A stretch of 20,081 nucleotides of DNA, taken from positions 1 to 20,081 of IMG/VR virus record IMGVR_UViG_3300045936_000177; one strand, 5' to 3'. A model generated the notes under the pieces. It ran no database searches, was not told the DNA's origin, and saw only the letters and a list, made by a program, of their open reading frames with translations. The stretch's first letter is position 1. Every line of letters starts with the position of its first letter. This document shows, in pieces, positions 1 through 19,015 of the stretch. Origin of the DNA: a virus. A program made the translations under genes and the position numbers.

Positions 1-600
1 GAAGGTGATGTCGGTCACGGGTGGTGTCCCTCCTTGGTCCGGCAGCTCCGGATAGACGGCGTTGCCGCGGGCGCAGACCTTCCCCGCGTATTTCGGGTCG
101 GTCGCCCAAGTCCCGGCGAGCTCAGCGACCGTCTCGGCCTGGGCGGTGTTGCCGTAGGCTTCGACGTAGGCGTCGTAGCGCGGATCGACGGCGCGGATCG
201 ACTGCCCCGTCACCCGGAACCAGAGCGACCCGGCGTCCGCTGGGCCCGTCGCGTAGACGAGAAGATGGGCAAGGTGCGATTGCGCCGACGCGGTGCCGTT
301 CGGCCAGCGGTGGGATTGCTCGTTCTGGGCCGGATCGCCCGTGATCCCGATGCCCGCCGGGTTGAGGCGTTCGACCCACCAGTGCGAGGACCACGGGCGG
401 CTCGCCATCGTCGTCTCGTGGACGCTCTGAGCGACGACGATGGACGCGTCGATGCCGAGGAGCGGTGCGAGGCGGTAGACCTCTTGCAGATAGGCGGTTA
501 CCTCGCCCAGACGCGCCGCGCCGTTCGAGGTCGCGTAGGCAATCGCCCTTGTCGCAGTCCCTCTCGTTGACGCGATAATTCGATCTGTCGTCCGCATCAT
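1..600 (-). CDS. Endolysin, N-acetylglucosaminidase-like (partial, 3' end outside window)
   Basis: Peptidoglycan hydrolase for host lysis. The frame stays open from ATG at 600 to the window edge (200 residues seen, C-terminus missing). Residues 48-90 resemble the glucosaminidase (FlgJ/LytG-type) fold: helix, then VVAQSVHETTMAS with E62 as the likely catalytic acid, then LNPAGIGITGDP matching the family's 'N-x-x-G-I' strand. HLLVYATG (110-119) and ATDPKYAGKV (166-175) match later family motifs. No signal peptide is visible, so export would rely on a holin, and several small membrane proteins lie just upstream. GGAG lies about 10 nt before ATG600, and a stop at 661-663 excludes a longer start. 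The first ~20 codons are AT-richer at third positions than the rest and appear to be a recoded replacement of the relic start at 1218-1271. Family call is good; exact bond specificity is inferred. Confidence 0.82.
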   Translation of the reverse strand, partial: MMRTTDRIIASTRGTATRAIAYATSNGAARLGEVTAYLQEVYRLAPLLGIDASIVVAQSVHETTMASRPWSSHWWVERLNPAGIGITGDPAQNEQSHRWPNGTASAQSHLAHLLVYATGPADAGSLWFRVTGQSIRAVDPRYDAYVEAYGNTAQAETVAELAGTWATDPKYAGKVCARGNAVYPELPDQGGTPPVTDITF

Positions 601-608
601 GGTAAAAT
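572..608 (+). promoter_or_regulatory. Promoter region of HNH gene 1
   Basis: Extended -10 element TGG-TAAAAT (TG at 600-601, hexamer 603-608) upstream of the HNH gene at 681. A second -10-like GATAAT lies at 574-579 inside GCGATAATTCG (572-582), an 11-mer repeated exactly in front of HNH gene 3. No convincing -35 is placed for either. The -10 at 603 abuts the endolysin start codon on the other strand, and the GATAAT copy lies inside its first ten codons. Confidence 0.5.
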
Positions 609-618
609 TGCTCCAACG

Positions 619-653
619 AAAAGACCCCGGCGCGTGGTAGGCACCGAGGTCTT
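619..653 (-). terminator. Hairpin in HNH1 leader, terminator-like on the minus strand
   Basis: Arms at 621-633 and 641-653 with a 7-nt loop. In minus-strand RNA they pair over 13 positions with two G-U wobbles and are followed by UUUU (622-619), the form of an intrinsic terminator placed just before the endolysin ribosome binding site. In plus-strand RNA the same arms pair with two C-A mismatches and sit near the 5' end of the HNH1 mRNA. Which role matters is not decided by sequence. Confidence 0.55.
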
Positions 654-680
654 CCGCACCTCAGCGAAAGGACCGCTGCG

Positions 681-1217
681 ATGCCCTCGAACGATAGCAT
701 CCCCCTCGGGTTGTGTCAGTGTGGGTGTGGTCGCACGACGACGCGGGCTAGTAAGACCAACGCGCGTCGCGGTGTTCGCAAAGGAGACCCGCTCAGGTTC
801 TTCCCTGGACACGGATCGCGAACCGGTGGTCGGCCCTACTATGCAGTCGATGACGAAACCGGATGTTGGGTGTGGCAACGATCGGTCAGCGGCGAAGGTT
901 ACGCACGGATCACAATTGGCGGGAAGACCGTCAGCGCTCATCGCTGGTATTACGAACAACGATTTGGCTCCATCCCGGAAGGGTATGAACTCGATCACAC
1001 CTGCCGCAATCGGGCATGCGTCAACCCCGACCATTTGGAGCCCGTGACCGGTGTCGAAAATATCCGGCGCGGTGACAGGACGCATCTGACCATGGACGAC
1101 GCACGGGCCATCCGCGCACTTCGCGGCAAGGCGTTTCAGCGCGAACTCGCCGCGAGATTCGCGGTAGATCAGACGACGATTAGCCGCATTCAACTCAGGA
1201 AGGTTTGGCGAGAATAG
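681..1217 (+). CDS. HNH homing endonuclease 1 (HNH_3 type with C-terminal HTH)
   Basis: Free-standing 178-aa endonuclease on the strand opposite the late operon. Residues 12-44 carry a Cys-rich N-terminal module (CQCGCG then RFFPGHG) common in phage HNH proteins. CWVWQ (62-66) and GYARI precede the HNH core: AHRWYYE (H87), ELDHTC (H106), CVNPDHL (N115, H118). The C-terminal ~40 residues form a helix-turn-helix (RELAARFAVDQTTISRI), a usual DNA-recognition module of homing enzymes. AAAGGA lies 9 nt before ATG. It sits between the 1268-1678 gene and the endolysin, and its stop codon directly abuts an 18-codon relic of the endolysin start on the other strand. Third positions are more mixed than in the structural genes, consistent with separate ancestry. 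Confidence 0.9.
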   Translation: MPSNDSIPLGLCQCGCGRTTTRASKTNARRGVRKGDPLRFFPGHGSRTGGRPYYAVDDETGCWVWQRSVSGEGYARITIGGKTVSAHRWYYEQRFGSIPEGYELDHTCRNRACVNPDHLEPVTGVENIRRGDRTHLTMDDARAIRALRGKAFQRELAARFAVDQTTISRIQLRKVWRE

Positions 1218-1271
1218 CGCGGCGGTGCCGCGGGCGGCGCTGCGGATGCGGTCGCTCGTCTTCATCGTCAT
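1218..1271 (-). pseudogene. Relic 5' end of the endolysin gene
   Basis: Eighteen open codons from ATG1271 read MTMKTSDRIRSAARGTAA and then run into the antisense of the HNH1 stop. They match the start of the working endolysin at 600 (MMRTTDRIIASTRGTA): 9 of 15 aligned residues are identical and most others conservative, yet 7 of the 9 identical residues use a different codon. The ATG overlaps the stop of the upstream gene as ATGA, the normal coupling in this operon, with GGGAG upstream. This is read as the original endolysin start, disconnected by insertion of HNH1. Confidence 0.75.
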
Positions 1272-1678: not shown

Positions 1679-2088
1679 GAGCACCAACCCCGCCGGCGCT
1701 CAATCCCGCTCCGCCGCTCCGGCCCCTGCCACGCCTCGCTGTACGCCGGCACATGGACCGCCATCCGTGGCCCCTTCCTCGCCCGGTTCATCTCCGCTGC
1801 GGTCCCGAGCGCGGTCCCGATCACCAGCACCCCGGATGAGGCGATGGCCGCCCGGTTGAGGATCGTCAGCCACGAGGGCATCGCGGACGCCCGGATCGCG
1901 TTGAGACAGGCGACCTCGTCCATCTCCCCCTGCCGCGGTCGGCACGCCGCCAGGTCGACGCCGCGGGCGAAGAGATAGGCAACGGCGAAGACGTAGCCGA
2001 GGACCGCGAAAAAGATGACGAGGGCGATGAACAGATCGCAGAGGGATCGTCCGAATCGCGTGAGACGGCGTCGCTCGGCAGCGCTCAT
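1675..2088 (-). CDS. Two-TM membrane protein, holin-like candidate
   Basis: A 137-aa protein with two predicted membrane helices: residues ~17-42 (SLCDLFIALVIFFAVLGYVF and on) and ~77-97 (TILNRAAIASSGVLVIGTAL). A short loop between them carries two Cys, and the C-terminal tail is charged and Arg-rich (GPERRSGIERRRG). ATG2088 overlaps the stop of the upstream small holin-like gene (ATGA) and has GGAGG 8-10 nt before it; the longer in-frame extension to 2256 is Arg/Pro-rich shadow sequence. With two small hydrophobic proteins next to an endolysin, this could be a second holin or an antiholin. No family is recognised. Confidence 0.6.
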   Translation of the reverse strand: MSAAERRRLTRFGRSLCDLFIALVIFFAVLGYVFAVAYLFARGVDLAACRPRQGEMDEVACLNAIRASAMPSWLTILNRAAIASSGVLVIGTALGTAAEMNRARKGPRMAVHVPAYSEAWQGPERRSGIERRRGWCS

Positions 2089-2267
2089 GGCAGCATCCTC
2101 CGCAGCATCCAGGCAAAGACGGCCGTCAGGACGACGAAGACGAGGACGACGACCGCGAGGGTCGCCAGGTTCATGGTCCCGTCGCCGACCCAGTCCGCCC
2201 AAATCGAGGAAATCGCCAGCCCAAAGGTCGCCAGCGCCGCGAGCGGCGGAATCCATCGCTTGCTCAT
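2085..2267 (-). CDS. Small two-TM protein, probable holin
   Basis: A 60-aa protein of class II holin size. It has Lys/Arg near the N-terminus (MSKRW), a first hydrophobic segment at ~7-23, a short acidic turn (ADWVGDG), a second strongly hydrophobic segment at ~35-54 (TLAVVVLVFVVLTAVFAW), and a basic tail (MLRRMLP). Holins form the membrane lesion that releases the endolysin. The call rests on size, topology and position upstream of the endolysin, since holins share little sequence. Its start is coupled to the upstream frame as TGATG, and its stop overlaps the next start as ATGA. Confidence 0.6.
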   Translation of the reverse strand: MSKRWIPPLAALATFGLAISSIWADWVGDGTMNLATLAVVVLVFVVLTAVFAWMLRRMLP

Positions 2268-2664
2268 CACCGCCCCCGTTCGTCGTTCATCAGCGCTTCC
2301 TCCAGCCAGGTCACCGATCGCCGGGCGTCGGCGACGCGTTGCCGGACGTCGCGGAGGGTGTCGGTCTGGTCGACGACGGTCTGGATGCGGGCGCCGTCGC
2401 AGCGTCGAAGCCGGCACCAGAAGCGCCAGAACGCGTGAGCAAGCGGTCGATGTCGGCTTGGAGGTTCGCCACGTCCCGTCGCAGGAGGGTGATCTCCCCG
2501 TTGCGCAAGCGATCCGCTTCCTCCCACCGCGCCCGGTCCAGCTCGCAATCCAGCATCAGCGCGAAGCGACGAAACGCCCGTGGGCCGTAGCGGACCAGCG
2601 CGGTCAGCGTGGCGCCGAGCGCCGCCCAGGACCAGTGATCGACGATCCATCCGAACACCTCCAC
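2267..2664 (-). CDS. Membrane-anchored coiled-coil protein split between two frames
   Basis: GTG2664 has a strong AAGGAGG ribosome site. The first frame gives a hydrophobic N-terminus (FGWIVDHWSWAALGATLTAL), a basic patch, and a long amphipathic helix (RWEEADRLRNGEITLLRRDV, then LQADIDRLL). After about residue 78 it turns into Ser/Pro/Thr-rich sequence and stops at 2311. The -1 frame over the same stretch instead gives helix-like sequence (ARIQTVVDQTDTLRDVRQRV, ending WLEEALMNDERGR) that stops at 2267, exactly on the TGATG coupling to the holin start. The natural product therefore seems to be a fusion of both frames, about 130 aa. Either a one-base sequence error or mutation, or a recoding event, lies between roughly 2350 and 2430; no slippery heptamer was recognised. 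Function unknown, possibly lysis-associated. Confidence 0.5.
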
Positions 2665-2697
2665 ACCGAGGGACCTCCTTTCCGCTCGGGTCGTTGC

Positions 2698-2715
2698 GCC
2701 GCGCGGCGGCGCGGC
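2698..2715 (-). other. Short GC-only hairpin upstream of the lysis cassette
   Basis: A 7-bp perfect stem (2709-2715 with 2698-2704) and 4-nt loop lie in the 60-nt gap between the tail protein stop and the GTG at 2664. No U-tract follows, so it does not look like an efficient intrinsic terminator. It could modulate or process the mRNA between the tail and lysis genes. Confidence 0.3.
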
Positions 2716-2727
2716 CTCTTCTGATCC

Positions 2728-3426
2728 TTACGCGAGGCGAGTTGCCCGCACACGGATGACGGGATTACTGGCCGATACGGTCCCGGCGTCGCGCGGCTTG
2801 TAGTCCAGCGCCACCGTCACCGATCGGTTGCCTGCCACGTTCGTCTGCCGCCGGCTGACCGCCCACCGGCTCCAGATCGAGGCGTGGAGGTTCTGGGAAT
2901 TGCGCGGCGTTGCGATGCCGTCGATCGACACCTGGAAGTCGGCCCGCAGCGCACCCGAGTGCAGCATCGCCAGGTCCGCGTCCGCAGTGATCTCCCACGT
3001 CCCCGGCCCGAGCGGGATCGAGATCGACAGCGCGTTGACGTAGGTCGTCGTGCTCGGGTTGGTCGCGACCGTGGCGCCGCTGGCCGACCCCTCGCGATCG
3101 ACGATGCCCGGACCGTCGTCGGCTTTATGGACCGGCCCCCAGGCAACGTAGGACGGTGCGGCGTCGCGGTCACCGCGGCCCGGCAGCGCGATCCTGACGA
3201 CGGCGTCGCCGGGTTGTGGAGGGAAGAGACCGGCCCAGGCGATCGGCTCGTCAATGACGGTGCCGTCACCCTCTCGGAGCGTCACCAGACCGGAGGCGTA
3301 GGCAGACACGTAGAGCAGCCGATTCGCGACTCGTTCGATCTGGCGGCGCGTCGCTTCCTCGCGTCTGAGCGCGTGGTCGCCGGGGCGGGGCAGCGGTGGG
3401 ATGAGGACGAGGGCGCGGTCGGTCAT
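2728..3426 (-). CDS. Tail tip / baseplate-associated protein (unrecognised family)
   Basis: A 232-aa protein, last of the tail genes before lysis. Residues ~20-45 form an Arg-rich helix (RREEATRRQIERVANRLLYV). The rest is beta-rich with short hydrophobic strands (AVVRIALPG, TWEITADADLAML, FQVSIDG, RSVTVALDYKP), fitting a helical stalk followed by a beta-sandwich. This organisation is common in tail tip accessory or receptor-binding proteins, but no named family is recognised. ATG3426 lies 3 nt past the upstream stop, and its ribosome site (GGAGGG) lies inside the 3' end of the hub gene, so translation is probably coupled. Confidence 0.6.
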   Translation of the reverse strand: MTDRALVLIPPLPRPGDHALRREEATRRQIERVANRLLYVSAYASGLVTLREGDGTVIDEPIAWAGLFPPQPGDAVVRIALPGRGDRDAAPSYVAWGPVHKADDGPGIVDREGSASGATVATNPSTTTYVNALSISIPLGPGTWEITADADLAMLHSGALRADFQVSIDGIATPRNSQNLHASIWSRWAVSRRQTNVAGNRSVTVALDYKPRDAGTVSASNPVIRVRATRLA

Positions 3427-3429
3427 CAG

Positions 3430-4524
3430 CTAGCCCTCCGGCATGAAGCGATGCAATTTGTTGCACCGCCATCGTTGGGCGCCTTGACCGGGCACGAACC
3501 CCAATTCGACCTCGTCAACCCTCCAATTCCCGCTCGCCACCGTCGATCCGTCGTCGCGCACGATCGCCAACTTGACGACATCCCGGACCTCAAATCGCGG
3601 GTCTGGGATCGTCGACACCGCCAACCGCGTCAAGACGCTCGCACCCTCTTCGAGGGTTTTGAGCGCCAGCGCTTCCGCCTCCGCACTCGTCTCCAGGTTG
3701 CTCGCCTCGATCGTCTTGCCGAGCGTGAGACCGAGGTTGACGGTACTGACGGGCGAATCGGCACGGGAGTTTGTTCGGGTGAGATAGATCGGATCCCCCG
3801 CGGCGTCGTTGCGGATCACCGTACAGCGATTGCAGAGGCGTTCCGGGTCGGTATCCAGGGTGATCGTCTCAACCACGTCCCCGTTCGCCGACGAAATGGT
3901 TCGCGCCGGCTCTTCCTTGCCAAGCGTCCGGTAGGGGCGCGAGGTCGGCACCCCCTGCCGGTCCATCGCGAGGGGGTAGTAACCGGCCCGGAAAAGGCGG
4001 TCGTTGATCGACGTCAGCCAGTCGGTCCCCGGATCGTAGGCGCGCCGTTTGGTGAACGTCCGCGAACTCGCCGGGATGTTGGTCCGATTGAAGCCGCGGG
4101 CGGCAAGGTCGGTCACGATGCTGCCGATGACGTTGGCCCCGGCCGCGTAGCTCGCGCCCGCGGACGTGTCCTGCTGCAACCGCCAGCACAGGTCGCGTCC
4201 CTCGATCCGCCCCATCGGCCGCACGTTGGTGTGCGTCTCCCCCGGCGGCATGACGATGAAGAGCCCGACTTGCTCGGTGATCGAGACAAACGCCCCCTCG
4301 TCCGGGTCCCACCATTCGACAGTCAGGAAGGGCGCCAGGTAGGAGAAGGCGGGGAAGGCGTCGGGGTCGGTCGTCTCCGCCGCGAAGGTCATCGGCACCT
4401 CAGCGTCGGCGTCGACCTTGACGGACCCAGAGAGTATGAGTGCGCTTACGTCCTCGCCAATGCCGCCGTTGAGGTCGGAGCGGTAGCAGCGGGGGCGGAG
4501 GGTGTAGGCGGCGAAATTAGGCAT
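3430..4524 (-). CDS. Tail hub-like protein (XkdQ/gp27-like)
   Basis: A 364-aa protein that probably forms the hub closing the distal tail. Features resemble the phage hub/late-control fold: an N-terminal beta domain with an internal strand (DVSALILSGSVKVD), then RPMGRIEGRDLCWRLQQD, a helix (ANVIGSIVTDLAARGFN), a DWLTSINDRLFRAGYYPLAM segment typical of such proteins, and a C-terminal beta domain (FEVRDVVKLAIV, NWRVDEVELGF) before ending in RFMPEG. The order tape measure, large tail protein, hub, tip is typical of siphoviruses. The first codons after ATG (CCT AAT) end in T, unlike the GC-ending codons that follow. The plus-strand insert 4559-4936 separates this start from the stop it was probably coupled to. 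Confidence 0.65.
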   Translation of the reverse strand: MPNFAAYTLRPRCYRSDLNGGIGEDVSALILSGSVKVDADAEVPMTFAAETTDPDAFPAFSYLAPFLTVEWWDPDEGAFVSITEQVGLFIVMPPGETHTNVRPMGRIEGRDLCWRLQQDTSAGASYAAGANVIGSIVTDLAARGFNRTNIPASSRTFTKRRAYDPGTDWLTSINDRLFRAGYYPLAMDRQGVPTSRPYRTLGKEEPARTISSANGDVVETITLDTDPERLCNRCTVIRNDAAGDPIYLTRTNSRADSPVSTVNLGLTLGKTIEASNLETSAEAEALALKTLEEGASVLTRLAVSTIPDPRFEVRDVVKLAIVRDDGSTVASGNWRVDEVELGFVPGQGAQRWRCNKLHRFMPEG

Positions 4525-4534: not shown

Positions 4535-4552
4535 TATACTTCGCATCGGAGG
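4535..4552 (+). promoter_or_regulatory. -10 element and ribosome site of the 4559 insert gene
   Basis: TATACT (4535-4540) is a near-consensus -10 in GC-rich sequence; GGAGG (4548-4552) lies 6 nt before GTG4559. This spacing decides the start, because the in-frame ATG4523 would lie upstream of the promoter. No clear -35 was found. A transcript from here would have a very short leader. Confidence 0.5.
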
Positions 4553-4558: not shown

Positions 4559-4936
4559 GTGCTCGACCTTGGCCCATCCACGCCGCTCGTGGAACGCATC
4601 ATGTCCGCAACCCAACTCCCGGCCGGAACCGAAGGCGTTGCGTTCAACGAACGCACAACCAGTTACATTCGATGGTCGCGGGATCGCCCGGACGTCATTG
4701 TCTTCACCCCGAATCTGAGCATCCAATTTCTTCCGGACCCGAGAGGTGGCCCGCCGTTTGTCTTTGCCATTACCCTCAATCGCTCCGGCCGAAGCATCTT
4801 GGCATTTGATCCGTCCGAGCCAAAGGATTCGGAACGAGAGGTCTGTCGGCGCATCGACGACGCGACCGATGGGCTCGTGACCTACGGTCTGCGCGCGACC
4901 GACAGCTACGATGTGCTTGCGTGGTTGCACGCCTAG
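4559..4936 (+). CDS. Unrecognised 125-aa protein, plus-strand insert gene
   Basis: A soluble-looking protein with no signal peptide or membrane helix. It opens MLDLGPSTPLVERIMSATQL, continues with beta-like strands (ERTTSYIRWS, DVIVFTPNLSIQFL, FVFAITLNRSGRSILAF) and ends in a helical segment (SEREVCRRIDDATDGLV, SYDVLAWLHA). No nuclease or DNA-binding motif is visible. It lies between two tail genes, opposite to them, with its own -10 and GGAGG. Its stop abuts an ATG (4937-4939 on the minus strand) overlapping the tail protein stop, so it seems to have been inserted at a TGATG coupling. Codon use is less GC-biased than the tail genes. The most economical reading is a moron-type cargo gene of unknown function. 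Confidence 0.7.
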   Translation: MLDLGPSTPLVERIMSATQLPAGTEGVAFNERTTSYIRWSRDRPDVIVFTPNLSIQFLPDPRGGPPFVFAITLNRSGRSILAFDPSEPKDSEREVCRRIDDATDGLVTYGLRATDSYDVLAWLHA

Positions 4937-4938
4937 CA

Positions 4939-7590
4939 TCACTCGTCCCCCTCGGTGACGCTCTCGTCCCACGCTAATTCCCGGAACCGAATCCGCAGCC
5001 GTCGCGGCGCCCCGCCCGGTGTGTCGAGTTCCACCGGCGGCTCCGCGAACTGCCCAAAGTAGCTATTGCCGCGCCCGTCCCGGTAGTGGAGCGGATGCCT
5101 GCTCCGCGCCATCGCCTGCGCGCGGCGCATGATCGCGGAGGCGGCCTGCGGCGTTTCGGCGACCACCGAGTACTCCACGTCGATCTCGATGTAGTTCGTT
5201 TCACCCTGGAGATGGATTGGCTTGGCCTGGTTCCACGGCATTAAGACGACGGTATCGTCCTTCGGGGTGATCGTCCGCTCTTTGCGCGCCGCGAGCACAA
5301 TCCGCACGCTCGGGTCCGTGACATCGGTGATGATGGTGGCATCGAACTCCACCCGAAGCGTCTGCGCGTTCGAGGGCGATCCCAACAGGCTGACGCCGTT
5401 GAAGAGGATGTATTGGCGCAGCTTGTAGAGGTATTCGACCCCCGGTCGTGCCGCGTGGTCGTCGTAGTGGGTCGTCGTCACCGTGCGGATATACGGCAGG
5501 CGCACGACCTCGTTCGGCAAGTTCGGGTCCGCGGCGAGCGCGTCCGCGGTTGGCTGCCGGGTCAGGCGGTAATACTGAAACGCCCCCGCCCCCGCATCGG
5601 ACAGCGGGTAGGTCGACTGCGGCCACGACAGCCGGACGAACGACGGCACCACATCCCCCGGCGCCATCGCCAAATCGGCGGAGAGATCGAGCGCCGGCGG
5701 GTTCGGGAAGTCCACCGTTACCGTGACCGAATCGCTGCCGGAGATGGCGAGGGCGTCGGTGGCGGTGATGATGATGGTGATCTCGTCGCCCTCGTGGAGC
5801 ACTTCGCCCGTCGAGAGCGTCGCCGATTGCGTCGTCTGCGTCACCGTGGTGGCAAACGTGTTGTCGTGGATCGTGATGCCGTCGCGGACATACTGGACAC
5901 GGCGACTCACCTGGGACGAACCGGACACGTCCCAGTCGATGAACGGCGTTCCGGTGTCGATCGTGCCCCCGTCTGTCGGCGCGACGATGGTGACCTGGGG
6001 ACCGTTCGCGTAGGTGAAGGTCCGCTCCGCGCTCTTGGCCGCGCTCGCCTCAACTGTGGTGCCGCCCGAATAGACCGTGCCGTCAAAGGCGTAGGCATCC
6101 CACTTCCAGGTCCCGAACGTCGGGATGTCGGTCGAGGTGGTCTGGTACTCGAACTTGCCGGTGCTCGCGTTGTAGGCGCCGGTGCGGGTGAAGAGGACGG
6201 TGCCCGATGAGTTCTTGATCCGAAATTTCACCACGAGGGTGGCGGTCGAATCGTCGGGATCGGAGACGGTGACCGCCAGTTCCGGGCGCGACGTGCGGAC
6301 GGCGTTGTTCGCTGGCGTGTAGGGACTCGGCACCGTTGGCGCGGCGTCGATCGAGAAGGACCGCAGCTCGGACCAACTCCCCCAATTGCCGGCGGTGTCG
6401 CGGCCCCGCATCCGCCATTTCGCGTCGGTCCCCCAATCGAGGGCGGCGAACCCGGTCTGCGCCCAGGTCACGGAGGAGACGGCGTTCGCCGCCACCGTCT
6501 TGGCGATGGCGGAGCTGTTGCGGAGGACGGTGCCGGTGTCGGCGTCGAGGATATGGATCTCGACGGCGTTGGTCGAAAGCCCACCGGAGTGCCGCCACGT
6601 CGCCGCGAACGGGGACGGCGATTGCGTCGTCTGCTTGCCGGTCGGCGTCGTCTCGGTGTCCATCGACCCGGCGCCGATCTGGAAGTAGCGGTAACTGCTC
6701 CAGGCGGACCCGGCATCGAACTGATCGTAGACCTTCGCTCGGACCCGGTAGACGACACCGGCGGCGAGGGTCGTCGCCGTCGCCGGATACGACCGCGAGA
6801 ACGCGCGGTCGTCTTGCTCGTCGGTCGTCGCCGTGACCGCGTTGGAGTCGTAGACGAGCGCGCCGGTGTCGTGGCGATAGACCTGATACTGAAACCGTTT
6901 GAGTTTGTCGGCCTCGCCGATCGCGAACTGGACAACCTGTTCGTTGTCGTCGACGAAGGTCCCGACGATCGTCGGGGTGAAGGTCGCGATCTGGGACGGA
7001 CTGGCGCTGCTCGTCGAGGAGAGCCCCGCCACGGTGACGGCCGGGGCATCGGGCGGGACGTTGGCCTCCGTATCCAGCCAAACCGCGAGCCACCCCTCGT
7101 AGCTGCTCGCCGTCCAGCCGTCCGCCGGGGGCAGACTCGACCGGGAGCGGTAGTAGAAGAGGTTGTTGGCGTCCGCGGGTTGCGCCGCGTCGCCCGCTTC
7201 CCGCATGCCGAACCGGATGCGGGCGTCGATCGCCTCGAACCCAACGGCGTAGCGACGGCCGTCGAACATCCGCAGCGCCGCCTGCAGGTCCTTGGTCGTG
7301 ATCGCCCCGTCCGCCCCGCCCGTCATCGGGGTCGTGACCGCGAACTCGTCGGTCAGGACGACGATCTCGTCGGGGTTGCCGGACTCGGCGAGCTGCACGC
7401 CGCCCTGGACGGTCGGGGTGGCGGACCCGTGCTTGCCCATGTGGGCGTTCCACCGGTAGGCCCACTGGTCGCCGGCGACCTCACCGAAGACGGTGAAAAC
7501 CTGGTTGGTGCTGTGCGGCGTCGATTCGTTGCCGGTGCTGCCGGCGGCCGGCGAGGAGGAGGAACCGCGCGCATACCCGTAGATCGGCAT
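4939..7590 (-). CDS. Large tail tip protein with Ig/Fn3-like repeats
   Basis: An 883-aa virion protein. The N-terminal ~190 residues include a Ser/Gly-rich start and a beta-rich region with aromatic residues (QWAYRWNAHMGKHG, NNLFYYRSRSSLP). The middle (~190-640) holds several Ig/Fn3-like beta-sandwich units with recurring motifs: FQYQVYRHDTGALVYDS, YRVRAKVYDQFDAGSAWSSY, AKWRMRGRDTAGNWGSWSEL, FRIKNSSGTVLFTR, and proline starts such as PTVPSPYTPANNA. A further Fn3-like unit (YYRLTRQP, EYLYKLRQYILFNG) precedes a C-terminal domain (~745-883) that may be a tail-binding beta domain. Such repeats extend tail tips or bind cell-surface glycans. GGGGAGGG precedes ATG7590. The gene is parted from the tape measure by the 7645 insert. 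Whether it includes Dit-like functions cannot be settled here. Confidence 0.72.
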   Translation of the reverse strand: MPIYGYARGSSSSPAAGSTGNESTPHSTNQVFTVFGEVAGDQWAYRWNAHMGKHGSATPTVQGGVQLAESGNPDEIVVLTDEFAVTTPMTGGADGAITTKDLQAALRMFDGRRYAVGFEAIDARIRFGMREAGDAAQPADANNLFYYRSRSSLPPADGWTASSYEGWLAVWLDTEANVPPDAPAVTVAGLSSTSSASPSQIATFTPTIVGTFVDDNEQVVQFAIGEADKLKRFQYQVYRHDTGALVYDSNAVTATTDEQDDRAFSRSYPATATTLAAGVVYRVRAKVYDQFDAGSAWSSYRYFQIGAGSMDTETTPTGKQTTQSPSPFAATWRHSGGLSTNAVEIHILDADTGTVLRNSSAIAKTVAANAVSSVTWAQTGFAALDWGTDAKWRMRGRDTAGNWGSWSELRSFSIDAAPTVPSPYTPANNAVRTSRPELAVTVSDPDDSTATLVVKFRIKNSSGTVLFTRTGAYNASTGKFEYQTTSTDIPTFGTWKWDAYAFDGTVYSGGTTVEASAAKSAERTFTYANGPQVTIVAPTDGGTIDTGTPFIDWDVSGSSQVSRRVQYVRDGITIHDNTFATTVTQTTQSATLSTGEVLHEGDEITIIITATDALAISGSDSVTVTVDFPNPPALDLSADLAMAPGDVVPSFVRLSWPQSTYPLSDAGAGAFQYYRLTRQPTADALAADPNLPNEVVRLPYIRTVTTTHYDDHAARPGVEYLYKLRQYILFNGVSLLGSPSNAQTLRVEFDATIITDVTDPSVRIVLAARKERTITPKDDTVVLMPWNQAKPIHLQGETNYIEIDVEYSVVAETPQAASAIMRRAQAMARSRHPLHYRDGRGNSYFGQFAEPPVELDTPGGAPRRLRIRFRELAWDESVTEGDE

Positions 7591-7608: not shown

Positions 7609-7641
7609 GTGTAGAATCCCGCCCGCACGAAAGGAGAGGAG
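7609..7641 (+). promoter_or_regulatory. -10 element and ribosome site of the 7645 insert gene
   Basis: TAGAAT (7612-7617), directly preceded by TG, is a good -10; a purine-rich AAGGAGAGGAG stretch ends 3 nt before ATG7645 and supplies the ribosome site. No strong -35 is apparent. The minus-strand tail gene's own ribosome site lies between this element and ATG7590. Confidence 0.5.
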
Positions 7642-8268: not shown

Positions 8269-8306
8269 AATCGGAAGACAGAAGGAGTTTGTAGTTCGCG
8301 GGGCCA

Positions 8307-11300: not shown

Positions 11301-12920
11301 TTGCCGCAGCGGCTTCGCCAGTTGGACTAAGGCGGTTTGGACGGCACGCACCTGCTCGAAGTTGAGCCCAAAGACCTTGGAGAGCGAGGTCACTGCCGCC
11401 TGGATCGCCTGAGATTGGGAGGTAAACTTGCCGCCCGCTTGAAACTTGGTGCCGAAGAGGGCGGCGATTACGTCGCGGATGGGGCCGGCGGCGGCGACAA
11501 TCTTCCCGAATGTGGTCTGCACCGAATTGGCAACGCTGCTCACTGCATCCCGGAAGCCGAACAGGTTGACCTTGTAGGCGACTCCGAGGGCGGCCAGGGC
11601 GCCGACGATAAGGGCGACCGGGCCGGAGATCCCGAGCAGGAACGGCAGCATCGCCTTGAACGCCTGCACCGCCGCAATCACTTGTGGCGCGAGCAGGATG
11701 AAACCGCCCGCGAGCGTCGCGATCACGCCCGCCGCCGCTCCACCGAAGGCCGCGATCTTCTGGAGCGGTTCGGGCAGCTCGAGCAAGGCGTTGACGGCAG
11801 CGGTGGCGGCGTCGACGATCGTACGCAGCGGCGGCAGCAGCGCGGAGCCGATGACGATCGCGAGGGTTTCAACCGACCCTTTGAGTTGCTCCAGGCTGCC
11901 CTTGAAGTTGTCGAGGCGCGTCGCGGCGGCGCGCTGGGCAGCCCCGGCATCGTCGACTGCCTCCCGGTACTCCTGAACCCCCTTCGTCCCTTCTTTGTAG
12001 AGGATGTTGGCAGCACGCACGGCATCGGAGCCAAAAAGCACGGCGAGGGCGGTATTGCGCTCCTCTTCGGTCAGTCCGGCGAGGCGGTCCCGCAACTGTC
12101 CGGCGACGCCATCGAGCCCAATGAACTGTCCCTGGGCGTCGAAGAACGACAGCCCCAATTGATCCATGAGATCGGCTTGCTTCGCCGTGGGATCGAGCAT
12201 CGAGAGCAGGGCCGTCTTCAGCGAGGTCCCCGCGTCGCTCCCTCTGAGCCCATTATCGGCAAACAGCGCCAGCGCCCCGGCGGTGTCCTCGATGGTGAGG
12301 CCGAACGACGCCGCCACCGCCCCCGCTTGCGCCATGCCTGCCGCAAGGTCGGTCACGTCGCTCGCGCTCTTGTTCGCTGCGGCGGCGAAGACATCGGCGA
12401 CGTGGACGGCCTGGTCGCCCGAAAGGTTGAAGATGTTGAGGGCGTTGGACATCACCATCGCGGCTTGCGGCACCGCGACGCCGGCGGCAGCGGCGAGGGC
12501 CACCGCGCCGTCCGCTGCACCCCGGAGAATGTCCTCGGTGGAAACACCCGCCTTCCCGAGCTCTTCGATCGCCTGGGCAGCGTCGCTCGCGCTAAATGAG
12601 GTCGACTTGCCGAGGTCGAGCGCCTTTTGCCGTAGCGCCTCAAACTCCGCCCCGGTTGCGTTGGTGACGGCGGCGACCGCCGACATCTGCTCTTCAAAGT
12701 TCGCCGCCGTGTTGACGGCAAGGCCGAGCCCGCCGAGGACGGCCACGCCGAACCCGGTCATGACTCGCCCGGTTCCCTGGAGTTTGTCGAATGCGGATGT
12801 GGAGGACTTGCCGAAGGCGTTGAGGGATCGCTGGACGTGGTCGATGTTCGCGATGGCTTTCGCCACCTCGATCTCGATCGAACCATGGGCCGAGCCCAGA
12901 TCGACGCCGCCCGCGCTCAC
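8307..12920 (-). CDS. Tape measure protein (TP901-type)
   Basis: At 1537 aa this is the longest gene. Tape measure proteins set tail length and assist DNA delivery. An N-terminal helix precedes a TP901-like tail tape measure domain (~70-330): ANFEEQMSAVAAVTNATGAE, TSFSASDAAQAIEELGKAGV, ALALFADNGLRGSDAGTSLK, GSDAVRAANILYKEG. Hydrophobic segments follow (~355-455: GVIATLAGGFILLAPQVIAA, GPVALIVGALAALG). The centre has tandem ~41-residue Trp-rich repeats, and the C-terminal part has 30-residue repeats, then LPSSPAKKGPL, a motif typical of tape measure C-termini. At about 1.5 A per residue the tail would be roughly 0.2 micrometre, an inference. ATG12920 overlaps the stop of the chaperone extension (ATGA). 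Its stop overlaps an ATG (8305-8307) now leading into the 7645 insert. Confidence 0.93.
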   Translation of the reverse strand: MSAGGVDLGSAHGSIEIEVAKAIANIDHVQRSLNAFGKSSTSAFDKLQGTGRVMTGFGVAVLGGLGLAVNTAANFEEQMSAVAAVTNATGAEFEALRQKALDLGKSTSFSASDAAQAIEELGKAGVSTEDILRGAADGAVALAAAAGVAVPQAAMVMSNALNIFNLSGDQAVHVADVFAAAANKSASDVTDLAAGMAQAGAVAASFGLTIEDTAGALALFADNGLRGSDAGTSLKTALLSMLDPTAKQADLMDQLGLSFFDAQGQFIGLDGVAGQLRDRLAGLTEEERNTALAVLFGSDAVRAANILYKEGTKGVQEYREAVDDAGAAQRAAATRLDNFKGSLEQLKGSVETLAIVIGSALLPPLRTIVDAATAAVNALLELPEPLQKIAAFGGAAAGVIATLAGGFILLAPQVIAAVQAFKAMLPFLLGISGPVALIVGALAALGVAYKVNLFGFRDAVSSVANSVQTTFGKIVAAAGPIRDVIAALFGTKFQAGGKFTSQSQAIQAAVTSLSKVFGLNFEQVRAVQTALVQLAKPLRQLRNTYRDVTQAAALFFDIMRNPQDIAAMAELSKRLGRLFGKDLGRQLTTSIVRLGRAFKGFGAAVEQATRFDLGKWLSLQGMLNLLVRGVTDFTQFLRRELIPALGPILLAAITGTTAALAFLGAHMTEIAVVVSGLARLVGSTLAAPFRTLAALLRGDFAGAVDAALAPLRTLLDVGGDLVGWALRVGPPVVSAWASDLWDWLKTDGIPGFFDLVGEVTGWALTVGAPRVFVWAEDAWAWLKERLFGGASSRGDGTEMWEPFSITNWILNVLEPTVTGWLKDTAGDAWAGVKAAAGWAFAGTAALGDWTLDTVAPLVTGWLKDTAADAWAGLKAAAGWAWSGLVDLGDWTLSTIVPTVTGWLKDVASDVWAGLKAAAGWAWDNTADLGTVTISAGIAFAQDAANDLWSLANDGAAWLKTKLDSGLTAVVALGAVSVAAVVGFADDAANDLHALATDGAAWLKPKLSAGLTEVVDVGTVFVKAIVLLSGDVEFTRVATAIKDGVVGAIGRATDFGAGIVTAVKATIAGIADWNITAEDVFNAGTAVGSAIHDALAKGTVFAADVAAGLVTGIKTAVTSINLTEVDWSGLPKKIADGAVGVLKAGAEGTAKVAAAIGLFIAGAVTGIVFGEDVKFDDVATAIAGGIALAMTKVEGLGQGILNGIATAIGAAIDAGDFLSEGLTIAKQAVSAVASGFTGADFSSVGTAIWNGIKGAVTAAIPSGFIQTIVDAIIGSEPSGTAALGSGAVGAGGSQVMPLRRIPKIPRRAEDSTATFAADTTAVAEAAAFVMSLGKEWEAARFTADLLADPQAVKDAGNLSRQIGTQWDSASFSADFTADTRGVRDAVSLAFSLGNQWDGAVFSSRLTMDTSALDRAVEHAAAAAQQIRDLLPSSPAKKGPLSKPISWDYIADGLRRSLAGMGATTETAMARVNRALTPGVSAAFSPNGAHLATAPSRGTTVIVNHHNYALSEGDLVRVMRESRQGREAHEWISDGARYS
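8700..8970 (-). repeat. Three 30-residue tandem repeats in tape measure C-terminal region
   Basis: Three 90-nt units without gaps. Each encodes a helix, then a Gly-x-x-W-[DE] turn (GKEWEAARF, GTQWDSASF, GNQWDGAVF), then a strand ending A/M-D-[PT]. A partial unit (ATFAADT) precedes them and a degenerate one (SALDRAVEHA) follows. Confidence 0.75.
10105..10475 (-). repeat. Three ~41-residue Trp-rich tandem repeats in tape measure centre
   Basis: Units of about 123 nt share V-T-G-W-L-K-D-x-A-x-D-x-W-A-G-[VL]-K-A-A-A-G-W-A followed by a short variable stretch and L-G-D-W-T. Two looser copies of a related motif (DAANDLWSLANDGAAWLK, DAANDLHALATDGAAWLK) follow at 9890-10105, and a preceding stretch with paired Trp may be an older version. 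They suggest stepwise lengthening of the tape measure by unit duplication. Confidence 0.75.
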
Positions 12921-13306
12921 GGCTCGTCGTCCGCGTCGGCCCAGTCGCCCGCGAGTAGGTCGAGCGCCAGCGTCTCGGCATTGGTCGTCCCAAACTGCTC
13001 GGCGATCTGGGCCATCTCGGCGTCCTCATCGGTCAGCGCCAATACGTCGGCGAGCGTCCGGTACTTGGGGACCGACTGCTTGGGTTTGGCGTTCCTGGAC
13101 GGCGTCGGCGCGTCGACGAGATCCGTCTCGTTCGCCCGGTGGTCAGCCCATCGCTTCAGGTCGCGGACGGCGAAGTCGAAGTCGAGACGGACATCAAGAG
13201 GCCACCCGGCCTCGCTTAGTTCCAGACACTCCGATGGCCGCCTCCCCGACGACTCCGCCAGGTCCGCCAACTTCCACATCTGGAGCCGGTTCGTCAGCAA
13301 CGGCGC
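12917..13306 (-). CDS. Tail assembly chaperone C-terminal extension (+1 frame, gpGT-like)
   Basis: Open frame overlapping the 3' end of the 13817 gene and ending in an ATGA overlap with the tape measure start, the classical place of the lambda T part of gpG-T. It encodes ~129 residues: LLTNRLQMWKLADLAE, ASSGRRPSE-like turn, then DVRLDFDFAVRDLKRWADHR, a Pro/Lys linker, and an acidic helical C-terminus (LADVLALTDEDAEMAQIAEQ). No start codon with a ribosome site precedes it; ATG at the QMWKL segment lacks one. It is most likely made by ribosomal frameshifting as a fusion of ~299 aa with the upstream product. The frame is +1 (or -2) relative to that gene, not the -1 of lambda. Confidence 0.72.
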   Translation of the reverse strand, partial: APLLTNRLQMWKLADLAESSGRRPSECLELSEAGWPLDVRLDFDFAVRDLKRWADHRANETDLVDAPTPSRNAKPKQSVPKYRTLADVLALTDEDAEMAQIAEQFGTTNAETLALDLLAGDWADADDEP

Positions 13307-13817
13307 GAAAGAGCGCCGCCGCGGCCTCGTTGTTCGTCTCGCTCCAGAGGAAGAACTGCTGACGGTCGTAGGCATCGAGGTCGGTCACGAGGACCTGGCC
13401 GTCGTCGGTGCGCTCCATCTCCGAGAAGATCAGTCGCGGCTTGACGAACCCGGCCACGCAGTAGGCGTTGCAGATCTCTTCGTTGGCCTTGCTGTTGCGC
13501 TGCCACTGCGCCAGTGCCACCGACCCGTCTGAGCGCATCGCGCTCGGCTGGTCGCCGACCTTGGCGAGCGCATTGAGGACGCGCTGCTGCTGGTGCTGAG
13601 GCAGTGTTCCGATCGCGACCCGATCGGCGCTCGTGATGCGCCGGACGAGTGCCTTGCCACCCGTGCGCGGCAGGCGGAACCAAAAGCCCTGTCCGGCCTT
13701 GGTTCGCGCTGACCGAGCCCGTTCGGGCGTCAGTAGATCGCCTTGATCGTCGGCGCCGACCTCATCAACAAACTCGACCGGGATCGGCACCGGCCCCGAA
13801 AATGTCTGATTGTCCAC
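13194..13817 (-). CDS. Tail assembly chaperone (gpG-like)
   Basis: A 207-aa protein between the major tail protein and tape measure genes, the position of the chaperone that coats the tape measure before tail polymerisation. GTG13817 has GGGAGG about 7 nt upstream. Visible features: a Pro/Asp-rich start, WFRLPRTGGKALVRRITSAD, a helix (PQHQQQRVLNALAKVG), and NEEICNAYCVAGFVKPRLIF, a pattern familiar from siphovirus chaperones. FFLWSETNNEAAAALF lies just before the likely slip site; beyond it the zero frame gives Gly/Val-rich sequence to the stop, as in the unshifted product. Assignment rests mainly on context and the overlapping second frame. Confidence 0.75.
   Translation of the reverse strand: MDNQTFSGPVPIPVEFVDEVGADDQGDLLTPERARSARTKAGQGFWFRLPRTGGKALVRRITSADRVAIGTLPQHQQQRVLNALAKVGDQPSAMRSDGSVALAQWQRNSKANEEICNAYCVAGFVKPRLIFSEMERTDDGQVLVTDLDAYDRQQFFLWSETNNEAAAALFRAVADEPAPDVEVGGPGGVVGEAAIGVSGTKRGRVAS
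13307..13313 (-). other. Candidate +1 frameshift site
   Basis: Zero-frame codons CTC TTT C. tRNA-Phe reading TTT (residue 170) could move one base forward onto TTC and enter the frame that leads to the tape measure overlap. It lies just after the region where the zero frame still looks chaperone-like and inside the overlap of both open frames. No supporting pseudoknot or Shine-Dalgarno-like stimulator was established; other sites in the overlap remain possible. Confidence 0.4.
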
Positions 13818-13872: not shown

Positions 13873-13899
13873 TCAGGCGGCGGCGGCGTAGGTCCGAAA
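13873..13899 (-). pseudogene. Relic 3' end of the major tail protein gene
   Basis: Minus-strand codons here encode QFRTYAAAA then TGA; the working major tail protein ends VQQETYAAAA then TAA at 14637. The shared T-Y-A-A-A-A-stop is encoded with a different codon at every one of the seven positions (ACC TAC GCC GCC GCC GCC TGA here; ACG TAT GCT GCG GCT GCA TAA in the gene). The relic begins right at the HNH2 promoter. This is read as the original gene end, cut off when HNH2 and a recoded end were inserted. Confidence 0.72.
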
Positions 13900-13900: not shown

Positions 13901-13939
13901 TGGTACAATTGCGGCGTCAGTTTCCTGCTGACTTGCCGC
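13901..13939 (+). promoter_or_regulatory. Extended -10 promoter and leader hairpin of HNH gene 2
   Basis: TGG-TACAAT (13901-13909) is an extended -10. A stem follows at once: 13911-13920 pairs with 13928-13939 (5 + 5 bp with a 2-nt bulge, 7-nt loop). With a start near 13916 only the inner stem would be in the RNA. No -35 is evident, as usual for extended -10 promoters. Confidence 0.5.
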
Positions 13940-13962: not shown

Positions 13963-14631
13963 ATGGAGACGACGTGCCCCCAATGCCAGCGAGTTTTTGC
14001 GCTTCGCCCCTGCGACGTACGGAAGGGCAAGCGATTCTGTTCGCGTGCGTGCTACGACAAAAGCCGCGACGCTCAACCGAAGGCGGATAGGCAGTGCGTC
14101 TGTCGGCAATGCGGTGAGACGTTCCATCCGCATCCGAGCAGCCCCGGCATCTACTGCTCGTACAGGTGCCGCGCCGCGTTTCAGAAGGGCGAGCACCACA
14201 ACCGCTACCAGGGCGGTCAGGTGACGTTGACGTGCGAGCAATGCGGCAGGGAGTTCTCGGTCTATCCCAGCCGCACGCGGCGAAAGAGTCCGGCGAAGTT
14301 GTGCTCGAAGGCGTGCACCGCGCTCTACCAGCGCGGCCCGAACGCTCCAGGGTGGAAGGGCGGACGGTTTCTTGATCCGCAGGGATACGTCGTGGTCTAC
14401 GCCCCGAACCATCCCCGTGCCTTCAACAACCACGTCTACGAACACATCCTCGTCGCTGAGGCGACACTTGGCCGGTCTCTGATGCCCGGAGAGGAGGTCC
14501 ATCACGACGACGAAGTCAGGGACAACAACGACCCATCCAACCTCATCGTGCTGACCACGTCTGAGCATCAGAAACTCCATCGCGCCAGAGAGAAGCAGAA
14601 ACGACTTATTCAGTCGAATACTGCTACGTAA
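13963..14631 (+). CDS. HNH homing endonuclease 2 with three zinc ribbons
   Basis: A 222-aa protein. Three Cys4 zinc-ribbon modules stand in series: CPQC...CSRAC (5-30), CRQC...CSYRC (47-69), CEQC...CSKAC (91-118), probably for DNA binding. The HNH core follows: DPQGYVVVYAPNHP, HVYEHILVAEATLGRSL, EEVHHDD (H180/H181), PSNLIVL (N193) and EHQKLH (H202). ATG13963 has GGAG 10 nt upstream; the in-frame extension to 13810 crosses the promoter and is rejected. The stop lies 5 nt from the opposing stop of the major tail protein. It is flanked by the relic (left) and recoded working end (right) of that gene, pointing to insertion near the gene's 3' end. Confidence 0.9.
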   Translation: METTCPQCQRVFALRPCDVRKGKRFCSRACYDKSRDAQPKADRQCVCRQCGETFHPHPSSPGIYCSYRCRAAFQKGEHHNRYQGGQVTLTCEQCGREFSVYPSRTRRKSPAKLCSKACTALYQRGPNAPGWKGGRFLDPQGYVVVYAPNHPRAFNNHVYEHILVAEATLGRSLMPGEEVHHDDEVRDNNDPSNLIVLTTSEHQKLHRAREKQKRLIQSNTAT

Positions 14632-14636: not shown

Positions 14637-15170
14637 TTATGCAGCCGCAGCATACGTCTCCTGTTGCACCCTTGAGAGGAGCACACCCGAGATCGCCACG
14701 CCCTCGAAGTCGAGGCTCGGCTCGTCCCAGGCGTCGCCCGAGAGTTCTTCGGCGGGACCGCTCGTCACGAGCAGCTTCTTGAGGTTGACCTGGTAGCCCT
14801 CGCCGGAGACCGCCCGGTTGAACGTCGTCGCCGTCGCCTGAAAGTAGGTCGAGCCCGCCGACGCGCTTTCGTCGAGGGTGTTGAGTTCGGTCGTCCCCGT
14901 CCCGGACGGCACCACCGACCCGCCGACCATCACGGCGAGGGCCGCCAGCGGCACCGAGCCGATCGTGATCGATCCCGTCAGCCGCTTGGGGAGGCGGACG
15001 ATCGCGATCGTCGTGTTGTCGCCGGTCTGCTCGTCGGAGTCGGACTCGACATCCCAACTGATCGACTTGGAGCCGTAGACGTCGACGTTGCTGCCCGGCG
15101 TGTCGCCGGTCAGCAGCGCGACCTTGAGGTCTTCGAGTCCGCGGGGGACCACTTGCGTCGTCAGGGCCAT
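14637..15170 (-). CDS. Major tail protein
   Basis: A 177-aa protein of the size of siphovirus tail tube subunits, encoded between the neck genes and the chaperone/tape measure pair. The beta-rich pattern fits a tube protein: RGLEDLKVALLTGDTPGSN, VDVYGSKSISWDVESDSDEQ (a loop and strand motif common to tube proteins), TIAIVRLPKRLTGSITIGSV, YFQATATTFNRAVSGEGYQV, and SLDFEGVAISGVLLSRVQQE. GGAGG lies 5 nt before ATG15170, which follows the preceding stop by one base. The last codons (TAT GCT GCG GCT GCA TAA) depart from the GC-ending habit of the gene and look recoded. Confidence 0.85.
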   Translation of the reverse strand: MALTTQVVPRGLEDLKVALLTGDTPGSNVDVYGSKSISWDVESDSDEQTGDNTTIAIVRLPKRLTGSITIGSVPLAALAVMVGGSVVPSGTGTTELNTLDESASAGSTYFQATATTFNRAVSGEGYQVNLKKLLVTSGPAEELSGDAWDEPSLDFEGVAISGVLLSRVQQETYAAAA

Positions 15171-17135: not shown

Positions 17136-17138
17136 CGC

Positions 17139-17507: not shown

Positions 17508-17513
17508 CGCGCC

Positions 17514-17723
17514 CTACCGCGCCTTGCCGGTGTGGTCGGCGGTGATCGTGCCCTCGGTGTGCGGGCGCTTCTTCGCCGTTGTGCGCGCGGGCGCCGGATC
17601 GATCTGCATCTCGTCGTCGTCCGCGTCGTCGTCGGCATCGGCCCCAAAGTCATCGGCCGCGTTCGCCGCCGCCTTGGCCTCGGCCTCTGCCTTGGCCTTC
17701 ATCTCCGCGTCGGTCTGTCGCAT
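17514..17723 (-). CDS. Small Ala/Asp-rich protein
   Basis: A 69-aa protein starting MRQTDAEMKAKAEAEAKAAA (charged helix) followed by an acidic run (DDFGADADDDADDDEMQID) and a basic C-terminus (TTAKKRPHTEG). Likely a helix plus disordered tail. It is packed between connector and head-closure genes with 3-6 nt gaps. It is similar in style to the 16542-16772 product; function unknown. Confidence 0.5.
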   Translation of the reverse strand: MRQTDAEMKAKAEAEAKAAANAADDFGADADDDADDDEMQIDPAPARTTAKKRPHTEGTITADHTGKAR

Positions 17724-17726
17724 CGC

Positions 17727-18143
17727 CTACCATCCTTCCTGGAATTGCCAGTCGTACGGGCGCCGGTACTCCGGCGTCGTGTCCCCGCCGCGCGTCGGCT
17801 TGGAGACCGAGGTCTGCCCGCTCGCCGTCGCGGCCGCGATCCTCTTCGTCAGTCCCGCGATCAGGTCTGTCAGGGCCTTGACTCGATTCTGCCAGGCGAC
17901 GCGGGTCGCGTCGTCGCCGTAGCTGGTCGGGCTTTGGGCCACCTTCGCCAGCGCCGCCCTGGCGCTGACGAGCAGCGCCGCTTCCTCGGTCGCCTCGGCG
18001 GCCAGGATCGCGAGGTAGGTCTCGTCCTGGAGCCACGCCCCGGACTCGCCCGTCTCCGGATCGATCTCGACCGCGGTGTCTCCCACGGCGAGACGAATCC
18101 TATCGAGTGCGGTGCCGAGTCCGGGATCGAAGGTCGCGCTCAT
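17727..18143 (-). CDS. Head-tail connector protein (gp6/gp15-like adaptor)
   Basis: A 138-aa protein, first gene after the capsid gene. It opens MSATFDPGLGTALDRIRLAV with GDTAVE, then helices typical of phage adaptor proteins: LQDETYLAILAAEATEEAAL, VSARAALAKVAQSPTSYGDD, and AWQNRVKALTDLIAGLTKRI, ending with an aromatic tail (YDWQFQEGW). The Ala-rich multi-helix plan, size and place fit the connector under the portal. ATG18143 is chosen because the longer TTG18200 start falls inside the hairpin of the HNH3 leader; a GGGG stretch precedes ATG. A separate frame ends in TGA overlapping this ATG, as if an upstream gene once ended here. Confidence 0.68.
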   Translation of the reverse strand: MSATFDPGLGTALDRIRLAVGDTAVEIDPETGESGAWLQDETYLAILAAEATEEAALLVSARAALAKVAQSPTSYGDDATRVAWQNRVKALTDLIAGLTKRIAAATASGQTSVSKPTRGGDTTPEYRRPYDWQFQEGW

Positions 18144-18151
18144 GTCGTAGC

Positions 18152-18184
18152 CCCGAATCCCGCAGAGATATGCGATAATTCGGG
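18152..18184 (+). promoter_or_regulatory. Promoter of HNH gene 3 with flanking inverted repeat
   Basis: Extended -10 TGC-GATAAT (TG 18171-18172, hexamer 18174-18179). It lies within GCGATAATTCG (18172-18182), identical to the HNH1 upstream sequence. CCCGAAT (18152-18158) and ATTCGGG (18178-18184) form a 7-bp inverted repeat enclosing the promoter, a possible operator. Confidence 0.5.
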
Positions 18185-18190
18185 CACGCG

Positions 18191-18220
18191 AAAAGGCCAA
18201 CGCGCGGGAACGCGTTGGCC
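18191..18220 (-). terminator. Perfect hairpin in HNH3 leader, intrinsic terminator on the minus strand
   Basis: Perfect 10-bp stem (18195-18204 with 18211-18220) and 6-nt loop. On the minus strand it is followed by TTTT (18194-18191), a good intrinsic terminator form between the capsid gene and the rest of the operon. On the plus strand it sits a few bases after the HNH3 start site, as in HNH1. Confidence 0.62.
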
Positions 18221-18262
18221 GGATCGCACCCTCATCCGGCCTGTTAGGGAGGTCAGAATCCG

Positions 18263-19015
18263 ATGCGCCAGAAGCGTACCAGTCGTCGTCCCCTCATTGC
18301 TCGCGTCTGTGAGCGATGTGGTGTTGAGTTCATGGCGTGGCAAAGCAAGGTGGATGTGGGCGGAGCGCGCTTTTGCGGTTACGCCTGTTGGCTCGAACAC
18401 AGACGACAGCAAACGGTCGAATGCGCCTGTGAGCAGTGCGGCAAAGCGTTCACCGTGGGGGCGGCGACGTTCGCCAAGCGCGGCGCACGCTACTGCGGAC
18501 GCCGCTGCGCGACTCTGGCGGCAATCACGCCGTTGCGCGATCGGTTCTGGACAAGGGTCAACAAGACCGACACCTGTTGGTTGTGGACGGGGAGCACCGC
18601 CGGACAGAGCGGATACGGCGTGATTGGCATCGGCCCACGCGGTGCCGGGAAGATTTACACCCACCGGCTCTCCTACGAGATCCACGTCGGACCGATCCCC
18701 GAAGGGATGCGGGTCTGCCACAACTGCCCTGAGGGCGACAATCCCCTTTGCTGTAACCCCGCGCACCTGTTCCTTGGCACCGATGCCGACAACGCCGCCG
18801 ACAAAGTTGCAAAGGGAAGGCAGACACGCGGAGAGTCGAACGCCTCCACAAAGCTGACCGAAGCGCAAGCCAGGACCGCCCTGTCGATCGACACCAGCCA
18901 GCGCGGAGCCGTCGCCAAACTCGCACGCGAATTCGGCGTCAGTCACGCGACGATTTGTGATGTCATTAGCGGCAGGACGTGGAAGCATCTGCGTCCAGAC
19001 CCTTCTCTTGGCTAA
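18263..19015 (+). CDS. HNH homing endonuclease 3 with two zinc ribbons and HTH
   Basis: A 250-aa protein. Two Cys4 modules: CERC...CGYAC (16-42) and CEQC...CGRRC (56-82). Then CWLWTG...GYGVI (105-120) and the HNH_3-type core: THRLSYE (H134), VCHNC (H153), CCNPAHLFLG (N165, H168), followed by the usual DNAADKVAKGR tail. The C-terminal helix-turn-helix (AKLAREFGVSHATICDVISG, then RTWKH) resembles that of HNH1, suggesting a shared origin. GGGAGG lies 10 nt before ATG. It stands between capsid and connector genes on the opposite strand. Its TAA overlaps the capsid TAG by two bases, leaving no intergenic space. Confidence 0.92.
   Translation: MRQKRTSRRPLIARVCERCGVEFMAWQSKVDVGGARFCGYACWLEHRRQQTVECACEQCGKAFTVGAATFAKRGARYCGRRCATLAAITPLRDRFWTRVNKTDTCWLWTGSTAGQSGYGVIGIGPRGAGKIYTHRLSYEIHVGPIPEGMRVCHNCPEGDNPLCCNPAHLFLGTDADNAADKVAKGRQTRGESNASTKLTEAQARTALSIDTSQRGAVAKLAREFGVSHATICDVISGRTWKHLRPDPSLG

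Follow-up and report, generated by a model that had tools for sequence, protein, structure and literature searches.

Homing in phage T4 involves co-conversion of flanking sequence and also one-sided illegitimate events whose junctions lie at microhomology (PMC2988022). In fungal mitochondria, mobile open reading frames (mORFs) supply their target gene with a diverged C-terminus and leave the native one stranded (PMC3630166). Here we describe a phage late operon on the 20,081-base IMG/VR virus record IMGVR_UViG_3300045936_000177, the whole of which is called the window below. Three free-standing HNH_3 homing endonuclease genes, designated HNH1, HNH2 and HNH3, have probably been inserted into this operon with replacement of an adjoining gene end, together with two genes, designated 4559 and 7645, that are moron-like. 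To judge from their sequences, the HNH inserts would have kept essential structural and lysis genes working through a differently spelled copy of the end each displaced.

The mORFs of Glomus atp6, atp9, cox2 and nad3 and of Allomyces atp6 (PMC3630166) share with this locus an endonuclease gene at a gene end, a diverged and largely synonymous end supplied to the target, and a stranded native end. They differ in that mORFs encode LAGLIDADG or GIY-YIG enzymes, run in the direction of the target, often in phase with it, and sit at 3' ends, whereas the genes described here are of the HNH_3 type, lie on the opposite strand, adjoin 3' ends and one 5' end, and occur in a phage. Because of the HNH_3 type and the opposite strand, we regard the inserts as working like mORFs without being members of that group. 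The free-standing HNH and GIY-YIG genes of T4-like phages (mob, seg; PMC2988022) are likewise lone nuclease genes, close to essential genes, that separate neighbours lying side by side in relatives; those genes are intergenic with distant cut sites, and neither replaced nor stranded ends are mentioned in the passages of that source consulted. Phage exchange bounded by homing endonuclease genes (PMC10448857) also has nuclease genes near essential genes, at the borders of the exchanged DNA, but the regions exceed 10 kb, unlike the replacement of a single gene end. No case of gene-end replacement by a phage homing endonuclease was found in the literature searched, in which subscription journals are poorly covered. 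What appears to be new is the extension of the fungal mitochondrial arrangement to phages and to gene starts.

Results

The late operon and its relatives

The operon occupies the minus strand of the window and includes genes for the major capsid protein (which matches the PHROG major head protein, 8.5e-14), a tail completion protein, the major tail protein, two overlapping open reading frames (ORFs), the tape measure, tail proteins and the endolysin. Five ORFs on the plus strand lie at junctions between minus-strand genes, at 681-1217 (HNH1), 4559-4936, 7645-8268, 13963-14631 (HNH2) and 18263-19015 (HNH3), and the minus-strand neighbours of all five have complete ends, exactly as an earlier interpretation made without database searches (the sequence-only reading) had described. 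Nearly all uninterrupted junctions of the operon overlap or have a gap of at most 10 bp, so a stop/start coupling is the expected location, at base rate, for any insert. The list of five was chosen by strand, and same-strand inserts would escape it; in G001, for example, a same-strand gene separates the capsid gene from the gene that follows.

Three contigs with mutually close record numbers show 99-100% identity over the overlap; all carry HNH3 and one also carries HNH2. More distant relatives are L003, with a tail protein 85% identical, and L007, L008 and L014, with capsid proteins 51, 45 and 42% identical. Empty sites in these relatives document insertion for three of the five genes (HNH2, HNH3 and the 7645 gene), one of them a direct TAATG junction. 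For those three, the relatives do not show ancient fixed genes, the outcome that would have spoken against the sequence-only reading's proposal of insertion.

Gene ends beside the HNH genes

All three HNH genes score above the cut-off of PF13392 (6.4e-12 for HNH1, 1.1e-9 for HNH2, 2.7e-10 for HNH3), and PADLOC homing endonuclease models match all three. HNH1 also matches phrog_826 (1e-34), and HNH2 has a zinc finger in addition to its HNH_3 domain. Genes whose ends face an HNH gene have a G+C content at third codon positions (GC3) of 0.83-0.89, against 0.55, 0.50 and 0.38 in the working ends themselves, and the two gene ends of lowest GC3 in the operon are those adjoining HNH2 and HNH3. A diverged duplicate of the gene end flanks the nuclease gene at HNH1 and HNH2.

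At HNH2, the working end of the major tail protein gene is GC3-poor (last eight codons 0.50) and reads ACG TAT GCT GCG GCT GCA TAA (14637-14657, minus strand). On the far side of the nuclease gene lies a second end, ACC TAC GCC GCC GCC GCC TGA (13873-13893, minus strand), continuous with the native spacer. HNH2 is absent from L003 and L008, where the empty site is a spacer of 67-70 bp with no coupling (tail-protein stop at 3363 and next start at 3434 in L003; 11325 and 11393 in L008). In an alignment with L003, the stranded end runs without a break through the tail-protein end and into the spacer, a result reached in 0 of 2000 shuffles and in 0 of 400 trials of an anchored test. This continuity marks the stranded copy at HNH2 as probably the native one, and the working copy as having probably arrived with the insert or from its donor. 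HNH2 thus appears to sit inside a gene end that was later replaced.

At HNH1, the working endolysin gene starts at 600 on the minus strand and begins MMRTTDRIIASTRGTATR. Its first 20 codons (541-600) have a GC3 of 0.55, after which GC3 climbs to the operon level. A second endolysin start with a GC3 of 1.0 lies at 1218-1271 on the minus strand, where a frame opening at the ATG 1269-1271, in an ATGA overlap with the stop of the upstream gene, reads MTMKTSDRIRSAARGTAA before it is cut off at the HNH1 stop. The two starts match over 15 residues with a score of 47, which none of 5000 shuffles and none of 400 flank-swap controls reached. The case for insertion of HNH1 is internal to the window and consists of this duplicated start, while codon usage points to the stranded copy as native; HNH1, too, would then sit inside a gene end that was later replaced.

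At HNH3, the working end of the major capsid protein gene (19012-19038, minus strand) overlaps the HNH3 stop, and its last eight codons have a GC3 of 0.38 against 0.88 for the gene as a whole. HNH3 is absent from L007, where the junction is TAG-CCTC-ATG, and from L008, where the gap is about 22 bp; there is an overlap in neither. HNH genes also follow the major capsid gene in L110 (Sulfitobacter phage phiGT1) and L111 (Vibrio phage 1.232.O), and the position 3' of the capsid gene may be one that HNH genes occupy repeatedly.

These sites revise the sequence-only reading in several respects. It had placed every insert at a stop/start coupling and never inside a gene; the empty HNH2 and HNH3 sites contradict the former, and the duplicated ends at HNH1 and HNH2 speak against the latter. 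The TGA/ATG overlap at 18140-18142, which it took for a coupling at HNH3, has no counterpart at the empty sites and is probably due to chance. It had also listed ATGs at 1269-1271, 4937-4939 and 8305-8307 that overlap the upstream gene's TGA and lead nowhere; the overlaps are present, but the ATG at 1269-1271 opens the second endolysin N-terminus.

Survey of other HNH loci

Our survey took in 80 IMG/VR loci in which relatives of HNH1 and HNH3 occur. For GC3 statistics, GC-rich loci were used, each cluster of similar loci was counted once, and the window was excluded. N-terminal ends facing an HNH gene showed a GC3 shift of -0.21 (9 clusters) against -0.05 for 150 other ends (p 0.003), and C-terminal ends a shift of -0.15 (10 clusters) against -0.03 for 147 other ends (p 0.006). 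Taking N and C ends together, gene ends that face an HNH gene are GC3-poorer in these unrelated loci (p 1e-4).

The anatomy seen in the window appears to recur in L091, where one gene end (...TVGAH*) lies beside the HNH gene and another (...TVGLH*) is stranded in a TGATG overlap with the next gene, with 0 of 400 controls reaching the match. L099 fits it: its NlpC/P60 start is GC3-poor, and GTGACGATCGCCGACGAG is stranded in a GTGA overlap, a piece too short to be tested by itself; a phage relative still has an ATGA coupling at that junction. Some flank tests also picked out four further loci (L054, L069, L087 and L090), which were set aside as looking like low complexity or short chance matches. 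A six-frame flank comparison, swamped by low-complexity frames, was replaced by end-anchored tests.

L031 and L037 have in common, at about 3370-4050, one HNH gene and the GC3-poor start (MARGVNKAILIGNL...) of a single-stranded-DNA-binding-like gene. Their upstream genes differ but share the last codons GCAGCTTAA, which marks a recombination boundary at a gene end.

Promoter-like boxes and leaders

Each of the five inserts has a 5-of-6 match to TATAAT on the plus strand, 24-89 bases upstream of its start. The boxes are TAAAAT at 603-608 for HNH1, TATACT at 4535-4540 for the 4559 gene (24 bases upstream), TAGAAT at 7612-7617 for the 7645 gene (33 bases), TACAAT at 13904-13909 for HNH2 and GATAAT at 18174-18179 for HNH3. 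The plus strand of the window has only ten such matches, the minus strand one, and the chance at a random position is 4%. The product of the five chances is about 1e-7, a figure that overstates the case because the inserts are richer in A+T. A -10-like box common to all five is as expected of separate self-contained units.

In HNH2 and HNH3 the box is followed by a leader hairpin, and folding of these leaders is better than that of shuffled versions (z -3.9 and -2.3, respectively), which is not true of the plus strand of the HNH1 leader. The leaders of HNH1 and HNH3 have in common the 11-mer GCGATAATTCG (571-584 and 18172-18183, plus strand), of which the window contains exactly these two copies and which is possibly a shared promoter; a shared 11-mer of any kind appeared in 47 of 2000 leader shuffles.

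Two moron-like genes

The 4559 gene (4559-4936, plus strand) has a GTG start after GGAGGT, and the 7645 gene (7645-8268, plus strand) encodes a protein with an N-terminal hydrophobic segment. Neither matches a family in Pfam, PHROG, NCBIfam or PADLOC. Searches of solved structures with the two proteins returned nothing usable, and their AlphaFold models were too poor for use, with a mean predicted local distance difference test (pLDDT) of 42 and 48. GC3 is 0.70 in the 4559 gene and 0.65 in the 7645 gene, against 0.84-0.89 in the neighbours, and the gene ends beside them have the same codon usage as the rest of their genes. The 7645 gene is absent from L003, where the neighbours are joined directly by TAATG; L003 similarity weakly suggests a stranded tape-measure end at this site.

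Morons of tailed phages were reportedly described by Juhala, Hendrix and colleagues in 2000. Like them, the 4559 and 7645 genes are single genes with their own -10-like box and a differing base composition, and the 7645 gene stands between genes that are adjacent in a relative. They differ in that their strand is opposite to the operon, that no relative covers the 4559 site, and that no terminator-like site was recognised at the 3' end of either gene. We call them moron-like only, since no factor-independent terminator was found; they look like ordinary self-contained passenger genes.

Other features of the operon

Between the major tail protein and tape measure genes, two overlapping ORFs occur in the window (12917-13817, minus strand), in L003 (3434-4310) and in L008 (11393-12302), so that the overlap is kept in two relatives. 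A tail assembly chaperone pair expressed through ribosomal frameshifting is usually encoded at this position, and the two ORFs are candidates for that role. Repeats of about 123 bases lie within the tape measure gene at 10155-10479, as seen in self-like matches with L002. The upstream contig G002 was searched for more HNH_3 genes, and none was found beyond HNH3. Upstream of the terminase, G002 (L024) has at 344-1642 and 1890-3773 a gene weakly matching a PHROG transposase (2e-6) and 1.9 kb without backbone-like coding.

Discussion

The HNH genes are opposite in strand to the operon, and each adjoins a brief run of coding sequence that looks foreign and would now serve as the working end of an essential neighbour. 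The replaced stretch would be about 20 codons of the endolysin start at HNH1, about 6 of the major tail protein end at HNH2 and about 5-8 of the major capsid protein end at HNH3. The nuclease would have cut a conserved gene end in an HNH-free phage, and a diverged donor carrying the HNH gene would have served to repair the break. On one side, homologous joining would import the gene end of the donor; on the other side, the joining would be illegitimate and would leave the native end stranded. The survivors would be only those events that left both genes functional, which explains the positions at gene ends with no preference for couplings. The 4559 and 7645 genes would have been inserted between genes, with no end replaced. 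The pattern also fits an element that carries its own replacement end, as the mitochondrial mobile ORFs do, the two accounts differing in whether end and nuclease travel together.

Several points weigh against gene-end replacement by homing. A stranded capsid gene end was looked for at HNH3 and not found, and repeated searches, genome contigs included, found no relative spanning the HNH1 or 4559 site. Nuclease activity of the three HNH proteins is predicted from sequence, and a two-hexamer scan recognised a full sigma-70 promoter at none of the five inserts. No near-identical HNH-free sister of the window phage was found, so that we infer the donor and the direction of the event, as we do the cutting, the order of events and expression. 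Gene calls in the survey were mechanical and their start codons uncertain, the C-end result being independent of starts. Promoter needs could themselves lower GC3 near HNH1. In its strongest form this last point would make the GC3-poor ends native, altered by selection for HNH promoters or leader structure, and the second copies a matter of chance. The -10-like boxes beside the endolysin start agree with such an account, as does a gapped DNA-level repeat search across the insert boundaries, which gave no significant result and is too permissive in GC-rich sequence. We consider it highly improbable, given the control results for the second endolysin start, the continuity of the stranded tail-protein end with its native spacer, and the effect on C-terminal ends 3' of HNH genes.

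The sequence-only reading proposed one insertion mode for nuclease and cargo genes, with the cargo hitchhiking on homing. All five inserts do have an intact minus-strand gene on either side, HNH2 and the 7645 gene (5.7 kb apart in the window, and the only insert sites that L003 covers) are both missing from L003, and the possible tape-measure end at the 7645 site would suit a common mode. But the HNH genes adjoin a GC3-poor, replaced-looking end, whereas the cargo genes leave both ends at normal codon usage and lie kilobases from any HNH gene, and tight junctions are the base rate in this operon. Neither a common mode nor hitchhiking finds support here, and we regard the proposal as very unlikely. 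Alternatively, HNH gene and recoded end may travel as a unit, the recoding keeping the target working and the carrier resistant to its own nuclease. All six codons of the tail-protein end, and the stop, differ between the working and stranded copies while the peptide TYAAAA is kept; recoded ends occur at either gene terminus; and L031 and L037 share the HNH gene and recoded downstream start despite their differing upstream genes. A diverged donor would yield the same codon pattern with no role in resistance, however, cleavage resistance is putative, and no same combination of HNH gene and end was found at several sites. We think such a recoded unit rather unlikely, and homing insertion with gene-end replacement from a diverged donor remains our preferred account of HNH1, HNH2 and HNH3.

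For homing endonucleases it is a practical matter by what route a nuclease gene gains entry to a compact operon and leaves its host alive. Stranded ends and codon-usage steps provide a readable scar of such an invasion, one for which any GC-rich phage can be screened. If recoding also blocks re-cutting, the arrangement would be a natural version of the synthetic home-and-rescue drive design. It is a doubtful extension that phage HNH_3 elements are, across phages in general, natural home-and-rescue drives, each moving together with a recoded, cleavage-resistant copy of the essential gene end that it targets, at either terminus; if true, such an element would invade coding sequence at no cost.

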